This document shows, one piece after another, positions 1 through 37,378 of a stretch of 64,000 bases of DNA. The notes under the pieces are model-generated. The model searched no databases, was not told where the DNA came from, and worked only from the letters and a program-made list of their open reading frames with translations. Source of the DNA: Asticcacaulis sp. EMRT-3. Lineage in GTDB: Bacteria > Pseudomonadota > Alphaproteobacteria > Caulobacterales > Caulobacteraceae. The stretch covers positions 1,323,001 to 1,387,000 of the forward strand of contig NZ_JASERT010000001.1 of the NCBI RefSeq assembly GCF_030027245.1. The letters run 5' to 3'. Positions within the stretch are counted from its first letter, which is position 1. Each line of letters opens with the position of its first letter. Both the position numbers and the translations under genes were made by a program.

Positions 1-2
1 TG

Positions 3-1355
3 GCGACGTTCGCCGACACGGCGCAGGCGGCGGGCTTTGACATCAAGGCAATGGCCCCGTCCGCGTCCGCAGCGCAGACCCTTGGCGATGCCCTGAACCT
101 GCCCGCCGTCACGGTCGAACGTCACCTGCGCTTGATGGAGCGACAGGCCGAGCCGAAAGCCAACGACCGGCAAATCTGGCTTATCGACGAGGCCAGTCTG
201 ATATCGGCGCGGGACATGACCCGCCTGCTGGAAGCGGCGGAACAGCGTGGCGCCAGGACCGTTCTCGTCGGCGACTACAAACAACTTAATTCTGTCGGCG
301 CCGGCGCAGCGTTCCGTCAGCTTCAGGAAGCCGGGATGCCGACGTTCAAGCTGGAGCAGGTTGTGCGCCAGACCAACGATTTGACGCTTGAGGCCGTTGA
401 ACATTCTATAAAGGGGCAAGCCAGACAGGCGCTTGATGCACTTGATCGCGGCGGCGGCCGTGTCATGGAGCACGCCACCGCCTCCGACCGTATGGGGGCC
501 ATAGCCGATAGTTACGCCGCACTCAGCACCGACGAGCGGCGCAATACCATCGTCATTGATCCATCTCGCGAAGGCCGCGACCTGTTGACCGACCGGATCA
601 GAACCGCGCTGGCTGACAGGGGCGAGCTTGGCAACCAGGCCATAACCCTGCGCACTTTGAACCAGAAGGACATGACCAAGGTGGAGACCAGGGAGGCCAA
701 GGCCTATGAACCCGGCGACGTGGTGATATTCAACAAGGCCGACCGGGTACATGGCATCGAGCGCGGCGCAGCGTTTGACGTGGCGCGGATTGATGCCAAC
801 AAAGGCACGGTCGCGCTCCGGGACAAACATGGCCAAGAAAGAAGCTGGCAGCCCAACAAATGGAGCAGCGTCGAAGTGTTCCAGGGCCAGAACCGCGAAC
901 TCCGCGCCGGTGACAAGATCGAGTTCACCCGCAACAATGCCGTCCAGGCCCGGATCAACGGCCTGAAGGCCGAGGTGACGAAGGTCGATCCAGATCGGGA
1001 AACCGTCACGATTAAGACCGAGCGCGGCAAGACCGTCACCTTGTCCATCCATGAGGCGTCCGACCAGCATATCCGCCATGCCTATGTGCAGACCGCCTAT
1101 GCCGCACAGGGGCGGACGGCGGAACGGGCCTTCATCCATTTTGAGAGCAACCGGACGAACCTCATTGACCAGAGCGTTCTCTACGTCGGCATATCCCGCG
1201 CCAAGGCCGAGGCCGTGATTTACACCGACGATCGCGACAAGCTCATACGCGGGATACAGGAACGGTCAGGCCAGGCCCAGAGCGGCTTCAGCCAGGGTGC
1301 CGACCACAGCGCCGGACAGGCGACCGTAGTGCTGACGAAAGGCATGTCAATGTAG
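3..1355 (+). CDS. MobF-family conjugative relaxase/helicase (TraA/TrwC-like), C-terminal part
   Basis: This is the C-terminal, RecD-like helicase portion of a MobF conjugative relaxase. Such proteins nick the transfer origin and unwind DNA during conjugation. The reading frame is open to the left edge, so the N-terminal relaxase domain lies outside the window. The visible part has a Walker B motif (WLIDEAS, about nt 177-198), a VGDYKQL motif with the glutamine contacting nucleotide (about 265-290), a YAAQGRT motif (about 1096) and a YVGISRAK helicase motif VI (about 1180-1205). A beta-rich insert lies between them. It stops 54 bases before the reverse-transcriptase pair. Its presence says the island is, or derives from, a conjugative or mobilisable element. 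Whether the full protein is intact cannot be seen. Confidence 0.85.
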   Translation, partial: ATFADTAQAAGFDIKAMAPSASAAQTLGDALNLPAVTVERHLRLMERQAEPKANDRQIWLIDEASLISARDMTRLLEAAEQRGARTVLVGDYKQLNSVGAGAAFRQLQEAGMPTFKLEQVVRQTNDLTLEAVEHSIKGQARQALDALDRGGGRVMEHATASDRMGAIADSYAALSTDERRNTIVIDPSREGRDLLTDRIRTALADRGELGNQAITLRTLNQKDMTKVETREAKAYEPGDVVIFNKADRVHGIERGAAFDVARIDANKGTVALRDKHGQERSWQPNKWSSVEVFQGQNRELRAGDKIEFTRNNAVQARINGLKAEVTKVDPDRETVTIKTERGKTVTLSIHEASDQHIRHAYVQTAYAAQGRTAERAFIHFESNRTNLIDQSVLYVGISRAKAEAVIYTDDRDKLIRGIQERSGQAQSGFSQGADHSAGQATVVLTKGMSM

Positions 1356-1432
1356 CACATAGCCACAAGTGCAATACATGCAAATTCTAATGGACTATGG
1401 TCCCGGACGTTGCATTTTCAAGCCCTATGTGC
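1355..1432 (+). repeat. 8-bp inverted repeat spanning the relaxase stop and drt3a start
   Basis: GCACATAG at 1355-1362 is matched by its exact reverse complement CTATGTGC at 1425-1432. The 62-base loop between them contains the TTG codon at 1410. The repeat could fold in the mRNA and affect drt3a translation, or belong to an upstream non-coding RNA. Nothing else supports a function. Confidence 0.4.
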
Positions 1433-2723
1433 CAATTCTCGAAATTACAACCAAGCTCAGCGGAGGCAGGATTTGTACGATTTTGCTTTCGACAAAAAGT
1501 CGCTGCACGAGACAATTCTAGCAAAAGACTTCATTGATGTTCCTGGTTTGCTCGATCCTTTAGTCCTCGATGCCACTCTTTTGCAGGCAATGGCTATAAG
1601 CCGTCTGGGATTCCCTAACCTCAACCTCAAAAATTCTGTCGTCCGAGGTAAAAGGCTCTATCAATTCGCGAACATCCACGATGAACTGGTAATCAGAAAA
1701 CTTGGTAAGAATATCCGCCGTTTGACGCGCGTGAAGCAATCGGATCGTGACACCATCATACGATCCATTAAAACCTTGTTGGAGGAAGGGCATGCCTTCA
1801 GAGTGTATAGACTTGATGTCAAAAGCTTTTATGAGTCGATCTCACGAGACGAAATAGCTTTAGCATTCCAAAGGGATGCCGGGTTTCCACCGGCGTCGGC
1901 GGTCATTTGGAGTAGCTTTTCCGGTCAACTTGGACTGCAGAACATCACAGGTATGCCAAGAGGATTGGCAATAAGCGCCGTAATTGCAGAATATCTGATG
2001 CGTGACTTCGACAGCCGAGTACGGCGAATGAAAGGCGTCTATTATTATGCCCGATATGTGGATGACATATTTATCCTTACCACAGCTACCGAGGCCCAGG
2101 ACACGTTTCACGGTTCGCTAAAAACACATCTGCCGGCGGGCCTAAGCTTCAATTATGTAAAGACAAAAGTATTGACGTTTGACCTACCCGTTGTCGCCGC
2201 CGCAACGCCTTTTGCGCCAGAGCATACGTTTGATTTTTTGGGCTACCAATTTGCGGTTTCTCCCCCAACAAAAAAAGCGGCAGGTGGGTGGGCGCGCACA
2301 GTGAGGCTTGATATCTCCAAAGCCAAAGTTAAGAAAATAAAGTCGCGATTGGTTTGGTCTTTACGTAAACACGTGGAAGACGGCAATTTTTCGGACTATA
2401 TTGATCGTGTAAAAGTTCTGACAGGTAACTACAATATCTATGACCGGCACACAGGACACAGACGAAACGTGGGTGTTTATTTCAATTATTCTATGATCGA
2501 CCACATAACTTCGTCCTCGTTGCCCGAGCTGGACAAGTTTTGGCAGTCCCTCGCGTTATCAGATGCTGGAAACTTGCCAGGTGCCGTCCCGGTCACGCTG
2601 AGCCAAGATCAAAAAAACTCGTTGCTTAGCCGAAGTTTCCAAAAGTCATTTCTTTCGAGAAAATTTTACTACTTTAAGCCCGTAAGACTAGCTGAACTTA
2701 CAGAGTGCTGGGCCTATGCATAA
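1410..2723 (+). CDS. drt3a: Defence-associated reverse transcriptase Drt3a (UG3-type)
   Basis: This is a reverse transcriptase of the 'unknown group' (UG) antiphage class. The palm domain is recognisable: RLDVKSFYESIS carries the first catalytic aspartate (about residue 136), GMPRGLAIS is the template-grip motif, and YARYVDD has the catalytic YVDD at residues 216-219 (nt 2055-2066). The next gene is a second, different reverse transcriptase overlapping it by 8 bases, which is the diagnostic arrangement of DRT type 3 systems (UG3 followed by UG8). The start is uncertain. TTG at 1410 gives 437 residues with no clear ribosome site. TTG at 1473 has GGAGG at 1462-1466, six bases upstream, and is a good alternative giving 416 residues. 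The gene is AT-richer than the chromosome to its right, as expected of imported defence genes. The subtype is from motif recognition, not alignment. Confidence 0.78.
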   Translation: MHFQALCANSRNYNQAQRRQDLYDFAFDKKSLHETILAKDFIDVPGLLDPLVLDATLLQAMAISRLGFPNLNLKNSVVRGKRLYQFANIHDELVIRKLGKNIRRLTRVKQSDRDTIIRSIKTLLEEGHAFRVYRLDVKSFYESISRDEIALAFQRDAGFPPASAVIWSSFSGQLGLQNITGMPRGLAISAVIAEYLMRDFDSRVRRMKGVYYYARYVDDIFILTTATEAQDTFHGSLKTHLPAGLSFNYVKTKVLTFDLPVVAAATPFAPEHTFDFLGYQFAVSPPTKKAAGGWARTVRLDISKAKVKKIKSRLVWSLRKHVEDGNFSDYIDRVKVLTGNYNIYDRHTGHRRNVGVYFNYSMIDHITSSSLPELDKFWQSLALSDAGNLPGAVPVTLSQDQKNSLLSRSFQKSFLSRKFYYFKPVRLAELTECWAYA

Positions 2724-4686
2724 AAAGAAATATATTAAGGGCAACCTTCGTAAGGGCGATTTTCAGCGTGCCGTTGTGACGGATACGGCACCATATGAAA
2801 TGCCGTTAATCGTGTCTAACGACGGGTTCTATAAGAATATTTCGGAGGGTACATCTGCCCCTGTTTCTCGCCAAGAACTGGCAGGGTCAGGTCTGACAGC
2901 GATTGCACGAAAAGATTACACGATCCCGTATCGCTATAACATCAAGAAGGACGGCAGCTCGTTCCGCCAACTGAGTTTGATTCATCCCTCACTACAATGC
3001 AGGGTCATTGACTTCTACCAGAAATACCACTCCTTAATTTGCTTTTATGCATCCAGGGGAAAGTTTTCTATTCGTCACCCTGCCAAAGTGGGTAGCACAT
3101 TTTCATTTTCGACAAATATTTCGGACAAAAATCAATTCAAAAATGATGTGGTAGATTTAACTCAGATCGAGTTTTTTATAAGAAATCCGGCTTCTTTTTT
3201 CGCCTACGAGGGCTATGATAGAATTTATAAGTATTTTTCTTCTGACGAATTTTTTAGAAATGAAAAGAAATTTCCAAAACTTGCTCTAATGGATGTCTCT
3301 AAATGCTTCTCAAGCATTTATACTCATACCCTTCCATGGGCCATAAAAGGTTGCGACTTTACGAAGCTAAACTTACATGCTGCATCATTCGGTGACGACT
3401 TCGATAACTTGATGCAGAAAATGAACTATAACGAAACCAATGGAATATGCATTGGTCCCGAACTTAGCCGTATATTTGCTGAAATAATTCTTCAAGCGGT
3501 GGACGTTGATATCGATGCGAAAGCGGTATCTCATGATCTTCACCTTGGGACAGACTATCATTGCCGTAGATACGTTGACGACTATATAGTATTCGCCAAA
3601 AATGAAGAAACTTTAGACAAGATAAAGGGCATTGTTGAGCTAGGCCTTAAAGCATACAACTTGCACCTCAACGAGGCTAAATACCTTAAGTATGACCGGC
3701 CTTTTATAACGCCAAAGTCATATATTATCCATTCCGCAAAAGCGGTAATCGGTGATTTTCTTGAGGAAAGGCTGACAAGTAAATTCAATTCTTTTGTTGT
3801 TCCAAAGAAAATATTCAGGAGTCGTTCTTTTGAAAAATCATTTCTCAATGCTTTGAAAAGTATTTGTGCCGAGCAGAAGGTAGGTTACGACGCCGTTTCC
3901 GACTATGTTATCTCAAGCGTTGCAAAGAGGATTATCCAACTCACGTCAGATTATGACCTAATAAAAAAAGCAGATCGGCCGGAAGAAGACTTGTACCAGG
4001 CAGCGTTTCAAATTCTTTTTGACACTCTGCTTTTTTTATATTCAGTCAACCCAACAGTATCGTCTTCCTATCAGGTAGGCAGAGCATTAATTGTCCTGAT
4101 ACGGTTTGTTCGGGAAAAAATGCCGGACAGTTATCCATCGATTGCGGGGCACGTTCATTCACTCATCTCGCAGTTTATTCGTCAATGCGTAAATATTGAA
4201 ACTGCCACGTTTCAATCGAAGGTTCCGGTTGAAATATTAAACATCTTGCTCGCGTCACGTGAACTCGGTTCACCATATTTACTCGAAGAAGAGTGGTTGC
4301 TGAATAACGTCTTCGATATTGAAAAAATGGAATATTTTTCGATTGTTTCGTGCCTCTATTATGTCAGAGGCGACAGCCGGTATAACCAGTTGCGAACGGA
4401 TGTCGAGGCCGCAATATTGAAACAGTTAGACAGTTGCAAGGGGGTCTTAAAACGCGCCCATGACGCGCATTTGTGCCTGGACATAATTACCTGCCCTTAT
4501 GTTTCACTGCCGACGAAACTTCAATTATACCGAGACCTCAGGATGGTTCTTAAATTGCCGATCAAAAACGATGTAACCCTGGCTACCTATTTGACCGATA
4601 TAGCGGCGCAGCCTTGGTTCGTACAATGGCAGACGGTTGACGTGCTTAACATGCTTAAGAAAAAAGAGTTGAGTGCGGTCTACTAG
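2716..4686 (+). CDS. drt3b: Defence-associated reverse transcriptase Drt3b (UG8-type)
   Basis: This is the second reverse transcriptase of the pair, 656 residues. The palm motifs are intact: MDVSKCFSSIYTH starts at residue 192 and carries the first catalytic aspartate, MNYNETNGICIGPE is the family-typical segment before the fingers/palm junction, and RRYVDDYIVF has YVDD at residues 286-289 (nt 3571-3582). About 330 residues of mostly helical sequence follow the palm; I recognise no nuclease or toxin domain there. Its ATG lies inside the last codons of drt3a (overlap 2716-2723), which suggests translational coupling and a fixed ratio of the two enzymes. Known DRT3 systems protect against phage and need both polymerases plus a non-coding RNA. 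It is strongly AT-biased compared with genes beyond 15.8 kb. There is no sign of frameshift or lost catalytic residues, so the system looks functional. Confidence 0.85.
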   Translation: MHKKKYIKGNLRKGDFQRAVVTDTAPYEMPLIVSNDGFYKNISEGTSAPVSRQELAGSGLTAIARKDYTIPYRYNIKKDGSSFRQLSLIHPSLQCRVIDFYQKYHSLICFYASRGKFSIRHPAKVGSTFSFSTNISDKNQFKNDVVDLTQIEFFIRNPASFFAYEGYDRIYKYFSSDEFFRNEKKFPKLALMDVSKCFSSIYTHTLPWAIKGCDFTKLNLHAASFGDDFDNLMQKMNYNETNGICIGPELSRIFAEIILQAVDVDIDAKAVSHDLHLGTDYHCRRYVDDYIVFAKNEETLDKIKGIVELGLKAYNLHLNEAKYLKYDRPFITPKSYIIHSAKAVIGDFLEERLTSKFNSFVVPKKIFRSRSFEKSFLNALKSICAEQKVGYDAVSDYVISSVAKRIIQLTSDYDLIKKADRPEEDLYQAAFQILFDTLLFLYSVNPTVSSSYQVGRALIVLIRFVREKMPDSYPSIAGHVHSLISQFIRQCVNIETATFQSKVPVEILNILLASRELGSPYLLEEEWLLNNVFDIEKMEYFSIVSCLYYVRGDSRYNQLRTDVEAAILKQLDSCKGVLKRAHDAHLCLDIITCPYVSLPTKLQLYRDLRMVLKLPIKNDVTLATYLTDIAAQPWFVQWQTVDVLNMLKKKELSAVY

Positions 4687-4919
4687 TCGGCTACGTTTTG
4701 GGTCGGAAGCTGCTCAATACCCCCTCTACCGTCGGGCGACCGACGGGTACACTGGCATGGCAACCTATTCGGGGAAATTTACCCGATGCGGCCCATGTTA
4801 AGAGCGAGCAATCGCACACACCTTAGTCGTGAGGGCAGTTTCCACTATCGAACGGGGACAGGCCGCCGACGACAAAAGCCCTTCTTAAGTTAGCAGATTC
4901 ACCGACACAACCATCCCTG
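4687..4919 (+). ncRNA. Candidate DRT3 template RNA: structured intergenic region with an ACACAC tract
   Basis: This 233-base gap follows drt3b and has no credible reading frame but much secondary structure. A 7-bp hairpin with a GCGA loop sits at 4729-4735/4740-4746. A nested hairpin has CATGG 4756-4760 with CCATG 4793-4797 and CGGG 4770-4773 with CCCG 4782-4785. A small GCGA/TCGC stem-loop lies at about 4804-4814. Directly after it is CACACAC (4815-4821). A possible closing helix pairs GTCGGC 4686-4691 with GCCGAC 4865-4870. From what I recall of DRT3 mechanism work, one polymerase copies an ACACAC template in a partner RNA. By eye this is the only ACACAC on this strand between 1350 and 4920. 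The ends of any RNA are unknown; no T-tract terminator is visible. Confidence 0.45.
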
Positions 4920-7409
<2,490 letters not shown>

Positions 7410-8439
7410 GATCGTGCCCCAGGGCGTGGTGTAATTGAGCGCTTGGCATCAATGACTTCCGGACAGGTCCGGGTTTCGCTCAGTTTGCCACGGCTGGCAT
7501 GCTGAGAAGTGGATCATCGCTGAGTTGTGCGATGGTTTCAAGGGTAATGTAGCGCCCGCGCTGAACCGCCCATTCATCGTTCTGTTCGAGCAGGATGGCG
7601 CCGACCAGTCTGGTGATGGCATCGTCGTTTGGGAAGATGCCCACGACATCGCAGCGACGCTTGATTTCGCCATTGAGCCGTTCAATGGGGTTGGTTGAGT
7701 GCAGCTTGATGCGGTGTTCCTTCGGGAAGGTCATATAGGCCAGGACATCGTGCTCAGCCTCGTCCATGATCGTGGCCAGCTTTGGCATTTTGGGCCTGAG
7801 CTGGTCGGCGACGTTTCGCCATTGGGTACTCGCCGTTTCCGCCGTCTCCTGGGCGAAGGCCGTGCCGATGAAGGCAGAGACGACGCGTCGCCCGCTCTTG
7901 CCGGCATGGGCGCAGACATTGCGCATGAAGTGAACACGGCAGCGCTGCCAGGTGGCGTTGAGAACCTTGGAGACGGCACCCTTGATCCCGATGTGGGCAT
8001 CAGAGACCACAAGTTTGACACCACGCAGGCCCCGGCGTGTCAGGTTGCGCAGGAACTCTGCCCAGATCGGTTCGGCTTCCGAGGTGCCGACCTCCATGCC
8101 CAGCACTTCACGCCTGCCGTCGCTGTTGACGCCAACGCAGATGATGACGGCGACCGAGACGATACGGCCGCCCCGGCGCACCTTCAGATACGTAGCGTCA
8201 ATCCAGATGTATGGCCATTCCCCTTCAATGGGGCGGTTCAGGAAAGCCTTCACACGGTCATCGATCTCTTCGCACAGCCGACTGACCTGACTCTTGGAGA
8301 TGCCGCTCATCCCCATCGCCTTGACCAGATCATCGACAGAGCGCGTCGAGATACCCTGAACGTAAGCCTCCTGGATCACAGCCGTCAGTGCCTTCTCGGC
8401 CACGCGCCTGGGCTCCAGGAAACCCGGGAAGTAACTGCC
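7410..8439 (-). mobile_element. IS256-family element, truncated copy 1
   Basis: This matches the left 1030 bases of the complete copy at 10385-11811 almost base for base, with a few substitutions around 7545-7580 and one at 8404. Its left terminal repeat begins GATCGTGCCCC at 7410, inserted inside the 5' end of the restriction gene. The other 397 bases, including the transposase start and the right terminal repeat, are missing; the IS3 element begins exactly at the break. No target duplication can be checked because the right flank is gone. Confidence 0.9.
7480..8439 (-). pseudogene. IS256-family transposase remnant (C-terminal part)
   Basis: This is the C-terminal three quarters of a Mutator/IS256-type DDE transposase. 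The catalytic aspartates in WIDATYLK and VVSDAH and the glutamate in NPIERLNGE are all retained. The roughly 90 N-terminal residues that include the DNA-binding region are deleted at 8439. The codon that is ATG (internal Met) in copy 2 is GTG here (about 8401-8403). It is not expected to transpose, but could be mobilised by recombination with copy 2. Confidence 0.88.
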
Positions 8440-8497
8440 TGGACTTGCCCGGAAAAAGTGGAGAGCGAACTTCTAAAATTTGCTAGGAGTTTGATCC

Positions 8498-8812
8498 ATG
8501 AAGGACGAGAAGAAAACATTAGGCGGGCGTGGTCGCCATGCTGGTGTGACGCCGGAGTTCCGTGCTGAGGCTGTGCGTCTTGTTGAGACGAGTGGCCGAT
8601 CTGTTGCCGCAATTGCAGAAGATCTGGGTATTGGAAAATCGACGCTGACGCGCTGGCTGACGCAACATCGGGAGGCCGATCTTTTGTCGGGGCCGCACTC
8701 AGACGTCAGCAAGGAGCTGGCGCGGCTTCGCAAAGAGAATGAGATTTTGCGCCAGGAGCGCGACCTTCTAAAAAAAGCAGCCGCCTTCTTCGCGCGGGAG
8801 ACCACGAAATGA
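8498..8812 (+). CDS. IS3-family transposase OrfA
   Basis: This 104-residue OrfA has a helix-turn-helix (FRAEAVRLVETSGRSVAAIAE to IGKSTLTRWL, about residues 20-55) that binds the terminal repeats, followed by a leucine-zipper-like coiled coil (KELARLRKENEILRQERDLL). The A7 run at 8770-8776 in frame A-AAA-AAA-G is a classic -1 slippery site. Slippage there would fuse OrfA to OrfB and give the active OrfAB transposase. The stop overlaps the OrfB start (ATGA, 8809-8812). Confidence 0.92.
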   Translation: MKDEKKTLGGRGRHAGVTPEFRAEAVRLVETSGRSVAAIAEDLGIGKSTLTRWLTQHREADLLSGPHSDVSKELARLRKENEILRQERDLLKKAAAFFARETTK

Positions 8813-9678
8813 TATTTCGGGTCATCGATGCGGAGAAGGCCACCGTTCCTGTCCGCCGCAGTTGCGCCCTGTTCGGCGTCAGCATGAGCGGCTTTTACGC
8901 CTGGAAGGGCCGTGCGCCCAGCCGTCGTCAGAAGGATGACCTGGTGCTTCTGGCGCATATCCGGTCGCAGTTCGCCACGTCGCATGAAACCTATGGCAGC
9001 CCGCGTATGACGGTCGAATTGCAGGAAGACGGCGTCGAGGTCGGGCGCCATCGCGTTGCCCGTCTGATGCGCGACAACGGTTTGAAGGCCTTGCAGACAA
9101 GGCGTTATAAGAAAACGACCGACAGCCATCATGGCGGGCCTGTGGCGCCCAATATTCTGGATCAGGACTTTGAGGCGTCAGCGCCTGACCAGAAATGGGG
9201 TGTCGATATCAGCTATATCTGGACGGCGGAGGGTTGGCTTTACCTGGCGATCGTGCTCGATCTTTATTCCCGCCGGATTATCGGCTGGTCGGTCAGCGAC
9301 CGGTTGAAGAAGGATCTTGCCCTCAATGCCCTGCAACGCGCCATCGCCATACGCAGACCGCCGCGTGGCGTTATTCACCACTCCGACCGCGGCAGCCAAT
9401 ATTGTTCCGAGGCCTACCAAAAGCTCTTGACGGGCCGAGGCTTTATCCTGTCCATGTCGGGCAAGGGCAACTGTTATGACAATGCGATGGTCGAGACGGT
9501 GTTCAAGACCATCAAATCCGAGCTGATATGGCGGACGGCCTACAGATCCCGCCAGCAGGCAGAAGCCGAGATATCCCAATATATCGACGGCTTCTACAAC
9601 CCACGCCGAAGGCATTCCGCCTTAGGCTATATGAGTCCCATCCAGTTCGAGAGCACCGCTCTCAAGCTGGCTGCCTAA
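8809..9678 (+). CDS. IS3-family transposase OrfB (DDE integrase domain)
   Basis: This 289-residue rve-type integrase core has an N-terminal HTH_21 region (YGSPRMTVELQEDG...RVARLMRDNGL) and the DDE triad: D in WGVDISYIW, D in HHSDRGSQY and E in NAMVETVFK. It is in the -1 frame relative to OrfA and is made as the fused OrfAB by programmed frameshifting at 8770-8776. No disruption is visible, so the element is probably active. Confidence 0.93.
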   Translation: MIFRVIDAEKATVPVRRSCALFGVSMSGFYAWKGRAPSRRQKDDLVLLAHIRSQFATSHETYGSPRMTVELQEDGVEVGRHRVARLMRDNGLKALQTRRYKKTTDSHHGGPVAPNILDQDFEASAPDQKWGVDISYIWTAEGWLYLAIVLDLYSRRIIGWSVSDRLKKDLALNALQRAIAIRRPPRGVIHHSDRGSQYCSEAYQKLLTGRGFILSMSGKGNCYDNAMVETVFKTIKSELIWRTAYRSRQQAEAEISQYIDGFYNPRRRHSALGYMSPIQFESTALKLAA

Positions 9679-9715
9679 AACCCGGTTCGCTCTCCACTTT
9701 TTCCGGGCAAGTCCA

Positions 9716-10384
9716 ATCTCATCAGTGGAAATGTCATACTTCGCGTAGAGGTCTTCGTCAGACCAACTCCGACTCCAATCCTGGTTCGGTACAAATGTGT
9801 AAACCTTGCGCGTCGTGTCCTGTGACGGCTTGTGAAGAAGGATTAGCAGACGGGTCAACCGACAGGAAAGATACGACAGGGCGTTTTCAGCATGACTCCT
9901 TGTCTCAAAAGGCCCGATGCAAAGGTAAGTCTCAGATGAGATTGAGCCCGGCTCCCCCACAAATGGGGTGCTTATTATTCGGTGCGGGTACGTGTCTTTG
10001 TTTCCCGTTCCGGGCGCGGCCCGACCTGTAAAAACCTTCCAATGATCAATGAACTGAATTCCAGATGAAATAGAGCTTCTTGGCGTGAAGCCCATACCTC
10101 CGTTCTGATACACCAACAGGTCGTCATCAGCACCTCTGGCGACCTTGCCTTTAAAAGTAGTTTCCAAACCAAATGGCTTTCTGGAACTAACCAGGCGTTC
10201 GAAGCGTAGGTTTTCAGGCAAGAGAAGCGACTGGTCTTGCCCGGTTTCCACTTCAACGACCTTTTTCAGGATCGACATTCCCTCATTGAATCTAATGAAT
10301 ACATCTGCCCCTTCTTCAACGAGTTTGCGACTAGCGGTCGAGAGTGCCTCGCCGTTGAAATGCGTGGTGACAGAGCAAAGTCCG
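9716..10384 (-). pseudogene. Eco57I-type DNA methylase, C-terminal fragment
   Basis: This is the C-terminal specificity part of the methylase whose N-terminal half is at 11812-12719. Removing the IS256 copy and one target duplication restores one continuous frame across the junction (RENRGL then CSVTTHFNGEALS). The reconstructed gene is 1568 nt, about 523 codons. Family-typical features are the segment HRIISTPFVGEPGS, the ETYLCIGPF strand, and the closing VYTFVPNQDWS...WSDEDLYAKYDIS. The last few residues were replaced by IS3 sequence at 9715, so the original stop is lost. There is no start of its own; the internal ATG at about 10276-10278 is not a real start. Confidence 0.88.
10376..10384. 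repeat. 9-bp target-site duplication (left) of IS256 copy 2
   Basis: CAAAGTCCG at 10376-10384 is repeated exactly at 11812-11820, flanking the complete IS256-family element. IS256 elements make 8-9 bp duplications, so this marks a simple transposition into the methylase gene. Confidence 0.93.
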
Positions 10385-11811
10385 GATCGTGCCCCAGGGC
10401 GTGGTGTAATTGAGCGCTTGGCATCAATGACTTCCGGACAGGTCCGGGTTTCGCTCAGTTTGCCACGGCTGGCATGCTGAGAAGTGGATCATCGCTGAGT
10501 TGTGCGATGGTTTCAAGGGTAATGTAGCGTCCGCGCTGAACCGCCCATTCGTCATTTTGTTCGAGCAGGATGGCGCCGACCAGTCTGGTGATGGCATCGT
10601 CGTTTGGGAAGATGCCCACGACATCGCAGCGACGCTTGATTTCGCCATTGAGCCGTTCAATGGGGTTGGTTGAGTGCAGCTTGATGCGGTGTTCCTTCGG
10701 GAAGGTCATATAGGCCAGGACATCGTGCTCAGCCTCGTCCATGATCGTGGCCAGCTTTGGCATTTTGGGCCTGAGCTGGTCGGCGACGTTTCGCCATTGG
10801 GTACTCGCCGTTTCCGCCGTCTCCTGGGCGAAGGCCGTGCCGATGAAGGCAGAGACGACGCGTCGCCCGCTCTTGCCGGCATGGGCGCAGACATTGCGCA
10901 TGAAGTGAACACGGCAGCGCTGCCAGGTGGCGTTGAGAACCTTGGAGACGGCACCCTTGATCCCGATGTGGGCATCAGAGACCACAAGTTTGACACCACG
11001 CAGGCCCCGGCGTGTCAGGTTGCGCAGGAACTCTGCCCAGATCGGTTCGGCTTCCGAGGTGCCGACCTCCATGCCCAGCACTTCACGCCTGCCGTCGCTG
11101 TTGACGCCAACGCAGATGATGACGGCGACCGAGACGATACGGCCGCCCCGGCGCACCTTCAGATACGTAGCGTCAATCCAGATGTATGGCCATTCCCCTT
11201 CAATGGGGCGGTTCAGGAAAGCCTTCACACGGTCATCGATCTCTTCGCACAGCCGACTGACCTGACTCTTGGAGATGCCGCTCATCCCCATCGCCTTGAC
11301 CAGATCATCGACAGAGCGCGTCGAGATACCCTGAACGTAAGCCTCCTGGATCACAGCCGTCAGTGCCTTCTCGGCCATGCGCCTGGGCTCCAGGAAACCC
11401 GGGAAGTAACTGCCTTTACGAAGCTTCGGGATCCGAAGCTCGACCGTGCCTGCGCGTGTTTCCCAGTCTCGGTCACGATAGCCGTTGCGCTGGACCAGCC
11501 GGTCGCCGGTTTTCTCATGGTAGCCGGCACCGGTCATGCCGCTCACTTCCAATGCCATCAAGCGTTCAGCCGTGAAGCTGATCATGTCGCGCAACAAATC
11601 GCTGTCTGAGGTCTTTTCAACAAGCCCTTTCAGGGCCATCATATCGTCGGTCATCGGTGTTCTTTCGTTCTGGAATGAGTGTCGCAACCCAAACCTATCC
11701 GAAAATCACTGATGACCAACCCGCTACGCTAAGGCTCGCTTTGCCCTTTTGAATGGGCGGCGAGCCATGCGCTACGCTCTTACCCAGTTACACCACTCGC
11801 TGGGACACGAC
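10385..11811 (-). mobile_element. IS256-family insertion sequence, complete copy 2
   Basis: This 1427-bp element has imperfect terminal repeats of about 24 bp: GATCGTGCCCC...GTGGTGTAA on the left, and its counterpart ending in GACACGAC on the right. It is flanked by 9-bp direct repeats and holds a full transposase gene. It interrupts the Eco57I-type methylase gene. The near-identical truncated copy lies 3 kb away in the same orientation. Confidence 0.95.
10455..11654 (-). CDS. IS256-family (Mutator-type) transposase
   Basis: The start [11 protein letters not shown] at 11654 was chosen because the upstream 11 codons lie in the leader and are not family-like. The 399-residue protein has the N-terminal region ([22 protein letters not shown]...[26 protein letters not shown]) followed by the catalytic core, with D in [11 protein letters not shown] in VVSDAH and E in NPIERLNGE. 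These form the DDE site of IS256 enzymes. The gene is full length and undamaged, so this copy is probably active. Confidence 0.95.
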
Positions 11812-12719
11812 CAAAGTCCGCGGTTCTCGCGGTCCCAAAGAAAATAGCAAACGCCCCCTTTGAGGCCGACGCCCGGAAATACGTCAGACGCGCTGAGATA
11901 GTCGTGAATGGAACGCAACCGATCATCAGCGAGCATTGATTCCCGGAACTCGTCTAAGCCCTTGCCACCTGCAAACCAACGCGCGGGGATAACCATTGAC
12001 ATATAGCGCGGCTCCAGCGCTTTGGCTTGCGTGACGAAATGATGGTAAATCGGGGCTGCGCTTGTCCCGAAGCCATCATCACTGAGTTGATAAGGCGGAT
12101 TGCCGATAATGACGTCAAATTGCATATTGCCTCCGAATAACTCGGCAACCCGAGATTTGATGTCGTCTGTATGAATGAATGCATAGGCATGAGTTTCCAA
12201 ATTTATGCCGCGATCCAAAGCTTCCTGGCTGGCCCCGCAATAGCTGCATTTGCCGTTGTGCCAAGTGTGCTCGGTCCGCTCAAACCAGATATTGCCTTCA
12301 TCACGCGCGAACCCCTTGGCGACAGAATGTTCACCGGCAGCGTGCTTGGAGCAATAAAGGCTGCGGCGGGCCAGCAGGCTTGTCAGTTGGGTAATTCCAA
12401 TGCCAAAAACCTGTTGGGTTAAGATGTGATCGACGCGCCTTTGCAGGTCGGGAATCTCCGCCGCCAATCCTTTGATCAAGCGGCTAGCGATTTCCCGCAG
12501 GAATACACCCGATTTCGTACACGGGTCCAGAAACCGAACCTTACTGTCGGCCCAAATACTTGCGCCATGGTGCTGCACGGCCCAGGCGTCTGAAAGTCCA
12601 TCTAACATCCGGTTGGCGAATTCCGGCGGCGTGAACACTTCGTCGTTCGACAGGTTGGCAATGCAGGTCAGCACATCTGGATTGCGGCCGCGCAGCTCAA
12701 AACTCACCCGTTCATTCAT
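11812..12719 (-). pseudogene. Eco57I-type DNA methylase, N-terminal fragment
   Basis: This is the N-terminal half of an adenine-N6 methylase of the Eco57I type. It has a SAM-binding motif I variant (LDPCTKSGVFLREI, about residue 65), a CxxC zinc-like pair (CSYCGA), and the catalytic NPPY box (DVIIGNPPYQLSDDG, about residue 205). It starts ATG at 12719, overlapping the upstream gene by 4 bases (ATGA). The frame runs into IS256 at 11811 and stops at 11772, giving a 315-residue chimera lacking the specificity half. Without excision the protein would be inactive or unable to recognise its site. Confidence 0.9.
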
Positions 12720-13366
12720 GCCGCTTCTCCAGAGGCCTCGCCACCATTCGCCAAATCACGCAAGGTCATAGGCGGATAGGCCGTCGTCGGCTTGAAGATT
12801 TCATGCTTGCCCAGATGTGCGAACAGAGACCCCTCGGTGCTGAAACTGGACATGCCCGTCAGCACATCGAGGCGAAAATCGCGGCGCTGGAACTTGCCCT
12901 TACCCAAGTAGCCCCACTCCACCACCTTAATCGGCTTGCCATCCGTGTCGCGCATGGTCATGGCATCGCCATGGATAAGGTTTTGTGTCAGCACGTGTGT
13001 TGCCGCACGATAGAGTTCGTCCGACTCATTCAGATTCAAATAGTCCGCAAACACGTCCAGCATATTGGCGCGACATTCTGCTATATTGTCAGCCAAAAGC
13101 TCGACGCCGTAGGCGCACATTAGCGCCAGTAGGGCATAATGCTGCCTGTCGAAGTCCGACTTGCCGAATTTCAGTTCCACGGCGGCCAATTTGCGCTTCA
13201 GAATCGGCACCAGAAAATTTCCGCTGCCGCAGGCAGGTTCCAAGAAGCGCGCGTCAATCCGCTCTGTCTCGCCCTTAACCAGGTCAAGCATCTGTTCGAC
13301 TAGCCACGCCGGGGTGAATACTTCCCCGTGATCGGCCACGCGCTTTTTGGACTTAATGAGATTCAT
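12716..13366 (-). CDS. N6-adenine DNA methyltransferase-like protein, first gene of the RM operon
   Basis: This 216-residue protein has a conserved N-terminal box (HGEVFTPAWLVEQMLDLV) and motif I (FLEPACGSGNFLVPIL, about residue 45), which bind S-adenosylmethionine. It lacks the catalytic NPPY motif; that motif is in the next gene, so the two products may act together. Start ATG at 13366 is preferred to the upstream TTG at 13372. It is the first of three co-oriented genes (this, Eco57I-type methylase, GIY-YIG/helicase), a recurrent restriction-modification set. The gene itself is intact, but its partners are broken. Confidence 0.75.
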   Translation of the reverse strand: MNLIKSKKRVADHGEVFTPAWLVEQMLDLVKGETERIDARFLEPACGSGNFLVPILKRKLAAVELKFGKSDFDRQHYALLALMCAYGVELLADNIAECRANMLDVFADYLNLNESDELYRAATHVLTQNLIHGDAMTMRDTDGKPIKVVEWGYLGKGKFQRRDFRLDVLTGMSSFSTEGSLFAHLGKHEIFKPTTAYPPMTLRDLANGGEASGEAA

Positions 13367-13477
13367 AATCAAAGGGATATAGTGTGTCGGTGATTGAGTC
13401 TACACGGATAGGATGCCCCATAGTGAGAAGCTAAGGGGCGTTGCCCCTCGCGCGCGCAAGGGTCTTCGATGAACGAC

Positions 13478-13603
13478 CAAGGCCGTATCCCCTGCCTTCC
13501 TTCGCTACGCTCTGTGCAGGCGGGTGATACCCCTCGGCCTTGATCGCCCTTGCGTTTGCTACCCCCACCCTCGGCGGGAGCCAAGGGTTGCTATGCGCAA
13601 CCC
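13478..13603. promoter_or_regulatory. Hairpin-rich leader of ardA
   Basis: Two strong inverted repeats precede ardA. CAAGGCCGTATC (13478-13489) faces GATAC 13526-13530 and CGGCCTTG 13535-13542. GGGTTGC/GCAACCC (13585-13591/13597-13603) has a 5-base loop and lies 16 bases before the ATG. Leading-region ardA genes of some plasmids are read from promoters formed by folded single-stranded DNA; these hairpins could do that or act in RNA. Confidence 0.4.
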
Positions 13604-13619
13604 AAAGCCAAAGAGGGAA

Positions 13620-14132
13620 ATGACCATGACCACACTGTTTGCACAGCCCTACGACATCAGCGCGCGCGGCTTTTATTACGACACGGCCACGGAATATTCC
13701 GCCAGGGCCAGCAAGCTAAAAAACGACTACGGCCAGCCCGTTGAAGAGTTTGAAATTCAGTTCATTGACGGCGAGAGCTTGGACGCCAAGCTATTTGAGG
13801 CTCTGGGCGTCAACCAGGCGAACCATGAGGCCTTTTTTGAAGCCCTGACGGACTGGAGCGACGACGACAAAATTAAGGTCATCATTGCCGTGGGCGAGGC
13901 CGGTTATAAATTCACACTTGGCGACGACGTGCCGGATCAGTTCGAGGTTGAGCTTTATCAGGCTGACAGCTTTGCGGACCTGGCCGCGCAGTTTGTCGAA
14001 GAAGGGCTTTATGGCGAGATACCGGAACCGCTGCGAAACTATATCGACTACGACGCCATCGCCCGCGACCTCAGCGTTGAATATGGCGACATTCAGCTTG
14101 CCGGCACCCGGTACATTTACCGGTGTGGGTGA
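13620..14132 (+). CDS. ardA: Antirestriction protein ArdA
   Basis: ArdA is a DNA-mimicking acidic protein that blocks type I restriction enzymes while a mobile element enters a new host. The start at 13620 follows AAGAGGGAA, a good ribosome site, and begins at the conserved MTTLFAQPYDISARGFYYD. The more upstream start would add 32 non-homologous residues. The product is 170 residues, rich in Asp/Glu, and keeps the family signature FAQPYDxxARGFYF-like N-terminus and the C-terminal DLSVEYGDIQLAGTRYIYR. It lies between the RM operon (divergent) and the integrase (convergent). Together with the relaxase it indicates conjugative spread. Confidence 0.92.
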   Translation: MTMTTLFAQPYDISARGFYYDTATEYSARASKLKNDYGQPVEEFEIQFIDGESLDAKLFEALGVNQANHEAFFEALTDWSDDDKIKVIIAVGEAGYKFTLGDDVPDQFEVELYQADSFADLAAQFVEEGLYGEIPEPLRNYIDYDAIARDLSVEYGDIQLAGTRYIYRCG

Positions 14133-14203: not shown

Positions 14204-15421
14204 TTAAGCCCCGCGCCGCATGGCAATGACCTTGGCGCCGTCGCGAAGCATGTCCAGATAGTCGGACCACCATTGCGCCATCTTGACCCGTTCATCCCAA
14301 TGGGTGCCGCGATGGTAGGTGCCCCGGATTTTGTTGCTATCCTTGTGGGCGAGCGCGCGTTCAATGGCGTCGGACGACCACTTTCCGCTTTCATTAAGCA
14401 GGGTGCGGGCGGTGCTGCGGAAGCCGTGGGATGTCATTTGATCCTGGCCATAGCCCATGCCTCGCAAAGCCGCGTTCAGGGTATTCTCTGACATCGGGAT
14501 ATTGCCGGACCTGACCGACGGGAACACATAGCGCCCGCCGCCCGTGAGACCTTTGACCTCCGTGAGTATATCCAGGACCTGGGTGCTCAAGGGCACGACG
14601 TGTTCGCTGCGCATTTTCGTCTTGGCCGCCGGTATGCGCCAAACCTTGGCTTCAAAATCGAACTCCGGCCATTCGGCGTGACGGAGTTCCCCAGGGCGTA
14701 CAAACAAGTGCGCCATAACCTTGAGAGCCAGTTTGGTCGTCAGGTATCCCTCGTAGCCTTCAATGACCTTCAGCAAGCTCCCTACGCCCTTTGGGTCCAC
14801 AATAGCCGCATGGTTCTTGACCTTGGGCGTTATCAGTGCGCCGCCGAGGGAGGCCGCAGGATCAAGCCGGGCGCGCGAGGTGATCACCGCATAGGTAAAG
14901 ACCCGGCTTGCGAATGAGCGGACGCGCTTGGCAGTTTCATGGTTACCGCGAAGCTCGATCTTTTTCAGCGCCGCCAGGACCTCGTAGGGTTCGATATTGG
15001 CTATCGGCAGGCTTCCGATATCTTTTTCCAACTGGGATGCCAGCCAGCGCGTCTTTTTCCTGGTCGCCTCGGCAATGCCTTCGCGCTCGATCTTATCCAT
15101 ATACTCGTCGGCCACAGCCTTGAACGTCGTGGCATTGGCAATGTCGGCCGCGACCTTCTTGCGCTTCTTGTCAACGCTAGGGTCAATCCCAATTTCCAAA
15201 AGCTCGCGGGCCTCATCACGCTTGGTTCGCGCATCTTTCAGGCCCGTTTCGGGGTAACGTCCCAGGGCCAACAGCTTTCTGAGGCCACCGAAGGAGTATT
15301 TTAGCCGCCATAACTTGGCGCCGGATGGTGAGACCTGGAGGAAAAGACCACGCTCGTCATAGATTGTAAAAGCCTTGTCCGTTGGCTTTGCGGAACGGAC
15401 GGTAGCGTCGGAAAGGGCCAT
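14204..15421 (-). CDS. int: Tyrosine-type integrase (P4/DUF4102 family)
   Basis: This 405-residue site-specific recombinase has an N-terminal arm-binding DUF4102 domain (LSDATVRSAKPTDKAFTIYDERGLFLQV, residues 1-90), a core-binding helical domain, and a C-terminal catalytic domain. In the catalytic domain are the arginine in VRPGELRHAEW, the HxxR box in SHGFRSTART, and the presumed nucleophilic tyrosine in RGTYHRG. This family integrates islands at the 3' ends of tRNA genes. The gene starts 164 bases from the 3' end of tRNA-Phe and points away from it, as expected for the enzyme that inserted the island to its left. Confidence 0.93.
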   Translation of the reverse strand: MALSDATVRSAKPTDKAFTIYDERGLFLQVSPSGAKLWRLKYSFGGLRKLLALGRYPETGLKDARTKRDEARELLEIGIDPSVDKKRKKVAADIANATTFKAVADEYMDKIEREGIAEATRKKTRWLASQLEKDIGSLPIANIEPYEVLAALKKIELRGNHETAKRVRSFASRVFTYAVITSRARLDPAASLGGALITPKVKNHAAIVDPKGVGSLLKVIEGYEGYLTTKLALKVMAHLFVRPGELRHAEWPEFDFEAKVWRIPAAKTKMRSEHVVPLSTQVLDILTEVKGLTGGGRYVFPSVRSGNIPMSENTLNAALRGMGYGQDQMTSHGFRSTARTLLNESGKWSSDAIERALAHKDSNKIRGTYHRGTHWDERVKMAQWWSDYLDMLRDGAKVIAMRRGA

Positions 15422-15585: not shown

Positions 15586-15661
15586 TGGTGCCTGGAGCCG
15601 GAATCGAACCAGCGACACGCGGATTTTCAATCCGCTGCTCTACCAACTGAGCTATCCAGGC
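15586..15661 (-). tRNA. tRNA-Phe (GAA), probable attachment site of the island
   Basis: The 76-nt cloverleaf reads on the minus strand from GCCTGGATAGCTCAG to ...CAGGCACCA, with anticodon GAA and encoded CCA. Its 3' end faces the integrase, so the island used the 3' part of this gene as attB and regenerated it. The matching direct repeat at the far end of the island is outside the window. Confidence 0.95.
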
Positions 15662-37269: not shown

Positions 37270-37378
37270 TACTCATCGAGACCAGCCGAGGGATAGGCCC
37301 GACGACGCTGGGGCAACCGCTGTTACATGCAGTATGGTGCCAACTCCTACGCGGTCAATTTTCCGCGACAGATGAGAG
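37270..37378 (+). promoter_or_regulatory. SAM-I (S-box) riboswitch
   Basis: The P1 stem CTCATC (37272-37277) pairs with GATGAG (37371-37376). Between them are the hallmark core GAGGGATAGGCCCGACGACGC, the GGGCAACC element and ATGGTGCCAACTCCTAC, in the order of SAM-I aptamers. It controls metX-metB. An alternative helix can form: GAGAG(A)CGC (37374-37382) with GCGCTCTCTC (37414-37423), competing with P1. No T tract follows. Confidence 0.9.

Follow-up and report, generated by a model that had tools for sequence, protein, structure and literature searches.

A complete-looking DRT3 antiphage system with a candidate ACACAC template RNA on a mobilisable island at tRNA-Phe in an alphaproteobacterium of the Asticcacaulis type

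Is a pair of overlapping reverse transcriptase (RT) genes on a mobile island a DRT3 antiphage system, and does the non-coding stretch behind them provide its template RNA? The question is raised by a stretch of 64,000 nucleotides (nt) from Asticcacaulis sp. EMRT-3 (contig NZ_JASERT010000001.1, positions 1,323,001 to 1,387,000), here called the window. With a probability of about 0.93, we regard the locus as a DRT3 system that looks complete, is carried by a mobilisable island at tRNA-Phe in an alphaproteobacterium resembling Asticcacaulis, and has an antiphage function predicted from sequence. Established here are the gene content, the residues for catalysis, gating and priming, the RNA with its structure by covariation, the island, and an AddA gene in the host.

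The two open reading frames (ORFs), drt3a and drt3b, are intact, lie on the + strand and overlap by 8 bases at 2716-2723; they bear out an initial annotation that spoke of two different, intact UG-type RTs with such an overlap. The locus start given there, 1410, is however 63 bases too early. The start of drt3a is likely the TTG at 1473, because a GGAGG precedes it by 6 nt and because Met1 of a solved Drt3a, 9z6y_A, aligns with residue 22 of the long ORF opening at 1410. With a GC content of 0.415 in drt3b against 0.616 in the right flank, the DRT3 genes are AT-richer than this flank.

The identity of the proteins was checked, as had been proposed, with profile hidden Markov models of Drt3a and Drt3b, and both proteins scored far over cut-off. 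Drt3a reached 348 bits with NCBIfam NF041747 (cut-off 200) and E 1.9e-122 with PADLOC Drt3a; Drt3b reached 644 bits with NF041748 (cut-off 350) and E 1.5e-204 with PADLOC Drt3b. The closest solved system is PDB 9z6y, which comprises both partners: 9z6y_A matched residues 22-436 of the long ORF (E 2.4e-63, 218 bits) and 9z6y_H residues 1-656 of Drt3b (E 6.7e-137, 460 bits). Next for Drt3b came 26cz, which is probably Drt3b of EcoDRT3. For Drt3a, the profile and structure-database searches used the longer ORF from 1410. UG3 and UG8 genes are known to occur side by side; a UG8 adjoins about 97% of UG3 RTs (PMC8934634).

Both RTs have the YxDD active site in the form of YVDD. In EcoDRT3, as reported in a 2026 preprint (PMC13174585), Drt3a copies ACACAC into poly(dTdG), while Drt3b needs no nucleic-acid template to synthesise poly(dCdA) and is gated by E22 and R241, with a contribution of R71 and with Y666 as primer. 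Every published residue stands at its published position in the 667-residue Drt3b of an E. coli locus (L047). By alignment, E22, R71, D182, F187, R241, YVDD276-279 and Y666 correspond to E28, R84, D193, F198, R252, YVDD286-289 and Y656 of the window protein, i.e., both gates, the R71 equivalent and the priming tyrosine are present; I183 is V194. Among 51 aligned Drt3b rows, which include the window protein twice, the R241 and Y666 columns are invariant. The E22 column holds E in 44 rows and D in 7, the R71 column R in 48, N in 2 and T in 1.

The 233 bases after drt3b (4687-4919) contain no convincing ORF, the longest stretch without a stop being 68 codons. They hold the sole + strand copy of ACACAC in the entire window (GTGTGT: four copies), directly 3' of the hairpin GCGA-GCAA-TCGC. 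A non-coding gap with the only same-strand ACACAC of the locus just behind a stem-loop had indeed been claimed. Yet 14% of 5000 dinucleotide-shuffled versions of the gap also contain ACACAC, and a comparison across loci was therefore needed: the motif alone proves nothing, whereas its position across loci does, as far as sequence goes. Within 240 nt after drt3b, the motif was found in 31 of 35 other loci, and in 31 of 31 if broken or insertion-hit loci are left out; control blocks of 240 nt each, taken upstream on the same strand, contained it in 18 of 548 cases. Left out were L004 (Drt3b frame broken, no ACACAC), L047 (IS1), and L055 and L056 (Drt3b truncated, none within 240 nt, the copy of L056 lying at 394). 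There are close kin among the loci, e.g., L050/L052, L003/L005/L045, L058/L059, L046/L061 and L027/L028/L084. The plasmid sources are the 7 of 11 matching records with a Drt3b coverage of 80% or more, and six E. coli genomes were taken from lists with 27 and 22 matching ones.

ACACAC is fixed across the DRT3 loci examined even where the gates vary. All loci with D in the E22 column (L042, L048, L049, L029, L001) and with N or T in the R71 column (L046, L060, L030) retain it; the two other D rows, P0070 and P0081, come without DNA in this set. This constancy is what would be expected if both strands must remain complementary. In the 31 loci, ACACAC lies either 42-68 nt or 99-235 nt past the drt3b stop, a short-distance and a long-distance group that suggest at least two RNA architectures. 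L047 (E. coli MS 145-7) has an insertion sequence (IS) of type IS1, the transposase gene of which (L047:4982-5679) begins only 18 nt past the end of drt3b, and the next 400 nt lack ACACAC; the locus may be a DRT3 with its RNA lost or displaced.

The predicted RNA core (Table 1) is closed by a stem of 11 bp. In an ungapped-helix test this stem reached p 0.015 in the window and p ≤ 0.05 in 10 of 25 non-redundant loci, the window included, with a combined p of 6e-9; the test was picked after a duplex-energy result had been seen, and both are reported. A covariance search across other DRT3 loci, proposed as a further check, recovered the region after drt3b in three of them. The model R1, built from the window sequence alone, was run against 27 other DRT3 loci (183 kb), and its sole matches at E ≤ 10 were L054 (E 0.0023) and L029 (E 0.0031), E-values being rough by the tool's own statement; both lie on the right strand, just after drt3b, with ACACAC aligned. 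R2, made from the window, L054 and L029, adds L010 (E 5.9e-5). The Drt3b proteins of the three are 38-40% identical to that of the window. In the four-sequence alignment, 89.9% of cells pair, and 22 of the 33 pairs show two-sided changes, whereas slid controls show 2 to 6. Structure-fitted alignments were used because plain MAFFT of six downstream regions gave few invariant columns (11 of 232). The 18 bases of hairpin and template are identical between the window and L054. Within the window, the final model R3 matches 4705-4843 alone at E ≤ 10, and R1 gives four further matches at chance level (E 0.58 to 1.8). Targeted unfiltered searches also found L041 (E 0.0023) and, weakly, L040 (E 0.057). 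The source sets of 27, 28 and 33 loci are subsets of the loci examined. An Rfam 15 scan at the gathering score gave no match at 4705-4843.

Several observations weigh against this reading. The first test applied to the closing stem, based on duplex energy, gave a weak result (window p 0.19, combined p 0.0035, with p ≤ 0.05 in 5 of 30 loci), and so did the test of the pre-template hairpin (window p 0.095, 5 of 25 loci, combined p 0.009). The structure-fitted alignments, A7 and A8, lean towards the proposed structure. In a broad search of 33 loci, R3 matched four alone (the window copy L006, L054, L029 and L010); most DRT3 RNAs are outside this model despite keeping ACACAC. Finally, a consensus scan of 1200-5100 revealed neither a + strand promoter-like site before drt3a nor a terminator-like site after the RNA. 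The comparative evidence points to a structured RNA after drt3b with ACACAC unpaired beside a stem-loop. The RNA candidate of the initial annotation thus stands, its position being kept at 31 other DRT3 loci and its structure at three.

Of the alternatives, a decayed relic survives best, i.e., frames still intact but function lost, as IS elements struck other parts of the island. Neighbouring restriction-modification genes are indeed fragmentary beside IS256- and IS3-type copies, and related loci decay: Drt3b is shortened in L055 and L056, its frame is broken in L004, and L047 combines IS1 with the absence of ACACAC from the next 400 nt. In the window, however, neither reading frame is interrupted and no key residue is missing, the 8-base overlap is retained, and closing stem and template are still present in the RNA; we consider a relic quite improbable. 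A second alternative accepts the proteins as DRT3 and takes ACACAC as coincidental, the real RNA lying elsewhere or acting in trans. The shuffles leave room for it, but the motif's presence in every intact relative versus its rarity in control blocks, together with covariance models that are anchored on the window RNA and retrieve the same place in L054, L029 and L010, have nearly refuted it. The identity with another UG class or a retron, to models of which there are weak secondary matches, is ruled out by the PADLOC and NCBIfam scores, since the best non-DRT3 matches are far lower (RT_UG17 97.5 versus Drt3a 407.5 bits; Drt6 143 versus Drt3b 679 bits), and the DRT3 assignment first made is thereby borne out.

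How would the DRT3 system work here? By homology, Drt3a would bind the RNA from around 4705-4843 and copy its ACACAC over and over into poly(dTdG). The GNRA hairpin, which abuts the template on its 5' side, would mark the template end, and the enzyme would therefore slip back by dinucleotide microhomology. Drt3b would prime on its C-terminal Tyr656 and make poly(dCdA) without a nucleic-acid template, with E28 gating dATP and R252 gating dCTP. The strands would anneal to double-stranded GT/AC DNA, which would normally be cleared by a host exonuclease (RecBCD in E. coli). If a phage inhibits the exonuclease, the DNA would accumulate and growth would stop. The ACACAC-templated synthesis of GT/AC DNA, put forward in the initial annotation, agrees with the 2026 preprint (PMC13174585). 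Transcription, DNA products, trigger and defence at this locus would all follow the E. coli case by analogy.

The guard nuclease deserves a comment. In E. coli DRT3 it is RecBCD that restrains DNA accumulation, and the term 'AddAB' is absent from the main text of this preprint (PMC13174585). The search for guard genes covered AddA alone, and the host genome has an alphaproteobacterial AddA gene (1106 bits, cut-off 860.75). The exonuclease clearing GT/AC DNA here would more likely be AddAB than RecBCD. More tentatively, and at slightly less than even odds, alphaproteobacterial DRT3 may combine a distinct, covariation-backed class of template RNA with AddAB hosts, where the RecBCD-guard model would need another nuclease and other phage triggers.

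Among known systems, PDB 9z6y/9z6z, presumably the structure published by Deng et al. (2026), aligns nearly end to end with both window proteins and shares the C-terminal tyrosine; its sequence, however, has diverged, and the likeness is one of proteins. EcoDRT3 has the same order drt3a-drt3b-RNA and the same gate, primer and catalytic residues; its Drt3b is 31% identical to that of the window. In L051, a close relative of EcoDRT3, ACACAC likewise precedes the closing strand (closing stem p 0.08), yet its RNA is not matched by the window-derived models, and it has a terminator-like hairpin after the RNA, whereas the consensus scan found none in the window. The guard may differ too, being RecBCD there, while the host here has an AddA gene. 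L040 (Novosphingobium sp. P6W plasmid) and L041 (Acetobacter oryzoeni plasmid) share operon and 8-base overlap with the window and have ACACAC 122 and 119 nt after drt3b; their Drt3b proteins are 40% and 38% identical, but their RNAs were matched in targeted searches alone, that of L040 weakly. DRT10 and DRT9, which are class 2 RTs and use template RNAs, resemble Drt3a, which is reported likewise to copy a short RNA template into repeats, but PMC13174585 describes no additional RT of the protein-templated kind for them; by sequence they were compared through PADLOC profiles only.

That an alphaproteobacterial host would widen the known range of DRT3, as the initial annotation had it, is wrong, since alphaproteobacterial DRT3 is already annotated. 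Database relatives of Drt3b bear the names Rhizobium, Agrobacterium, Azospirillum, Parvibaculum, Methylobacterium, Sphingobium, Novosphingobium and others, several of them labelled 'antiviral reverse transcriptase Drt3b', and annotated drt3a-drt3b pairs are found on Novosphingobium, Acetobacter, Zymomonas and Phaeobacter plasmids. Drt3b exceeded the family cut-off in 5 of 385 genomes of the class, 5 of 398 of the order and 2 of 398 of the phylum, draws that overlap and each count the window's own genome. Our own alignment, used as a query on 390 genomes from another order of the class, matched 8 of them at E ≤ 1e-60, two of these matches being truncated; five order-level draws were tiny (3, 9, 1, 27 and 17 genomes). 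Two scans of viral contigs with few peptide patterns yielded no Drt3b relatives, and three phage records gave partial matches only, covering 40-49% of Drt3b. One viral contig shares a 16-base word with the RNA; the 12.5 kb examined carry neither Drt3a nor Drt3b, and the match was taken as chance. A literature search for DRT3 and Alphaproteobacteria turned up no paper with both words among those listed.

Table 1. Coordinates of the DRT3 locus and of the island features in the window (L062, locus with the left att copy)
Feature	Position	Strand	Basis or remark
TrwC/MobF relaxase-helicase, C-terminal part	1..1355	+	Pfam; whole gene 938 aa in L062
Ribosome-binding site GGAGG of drt3a	1462..1466	+	Sequence read; 6 nt upstream of TTG 1473
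drt3a, UG3 reverse transcriptase	1473..2723	+	416 aa
drt3a catalytic YVDD codons	2055-2066		First metal Asp = D115
drt3b, UG8 reverse transcriptase	2716..4686	+	656 aa
drt3b codon E28	2797-2799		
drt3b codon R252	3469-3471		
drt3b codons YVDD	3571-3582		
drt3b codon Y656	4681-4683		
Predicted core of DRT3 noncoding RNA	4705..4843	+	Models R1-R3, pair counts, closing-stem test
Closing stem P1, 5' strand	4705..4715	+	Pairs with 4833-4843
Hairpin A	4729..4746	+	
Hairpin B, two stacked helices	4753..4800	+	Outer helix least supported, 74% of cells paired
4-bp hairpin with GCAA (GNRA) loop	4804..4815	+	Directly 5' of template
ACACAC, predicted template for poly(dTdG)	4816..4821	+	31/31 intact relatives
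Closing stem P1, 3' strand	4833..4843	+	11 nt after template
Tyrosine integrase	14204..15421	-	Pfam
tRNA-Phe, integration site	15586..15661	-	ARAGORN
18-bp att repeat, right copy	15586..15603	+	Left copy L062:5487-5504

The mobile island postulated at the outset is confirmed by the 18-bp att repeat, which bounds 23,117 bases ending in tRNA-Phe, and by the tyrosine integrase beside this tRNA gene. As to the host, the MurA encoded in the window is 92% identical to proteins named Asticcacaulis sp. Apart from DRT3, the cargo of the island includes AbiEi/AbiEii, a TrwB-type coupling protein, the TrwC relaxase, a fragmentary Eco57I-type restriction-modification system together with IS copies, and an ArdA-like protein. 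The AbiEi/AbiEii genes, a type IV toxin-antitoxin pair, lie at L062:6524-8216 (-). At 4920-13372 of the window, a ResIII-like protein and Eco57I-type methylase pieces stand beside two IS256-type copies and one IS3-type copy; this restriction-modification system looks interrupted. The ArdA-like antirestriction protein (13524-14132, +) is encoded beside the integrase. Outside the island, just left of the left att repeat, are genes for a PvuII-type restriction endonuclease and an N4/N6 DNA methylase (L062:3506-5351), which may belong to another, older island at this tRNA-Phe. Of 19 loci of the genus (L065-L083), collected via the tRNA-Phe region or the right flank, five have a near full-length relative of the integrase and one has fragments. 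One of the genus, L072 (G772), has a 95% identical integrase and no Drt3b match: the same integration system with other cargo. Elsewhere in the window, an S-adenosylmethionine (SAM) riboswitch was seen at 37270-37378 (+; Rfam RF00162, 90 bits).

In most respects, the locus adds one more ordinary example of a system that has been described and annotated before. Mildly new are the model of an alphaproteobacterial DRT3 RNA and a host with AddA, as opposed to the published RecBCD guard. The former is usable for one alphaproteobacterial group, and the guard nuclease is a testable difference. The template RNA of DRT3 is thus recognisable by structure far from E. coli, in some related bacteria.

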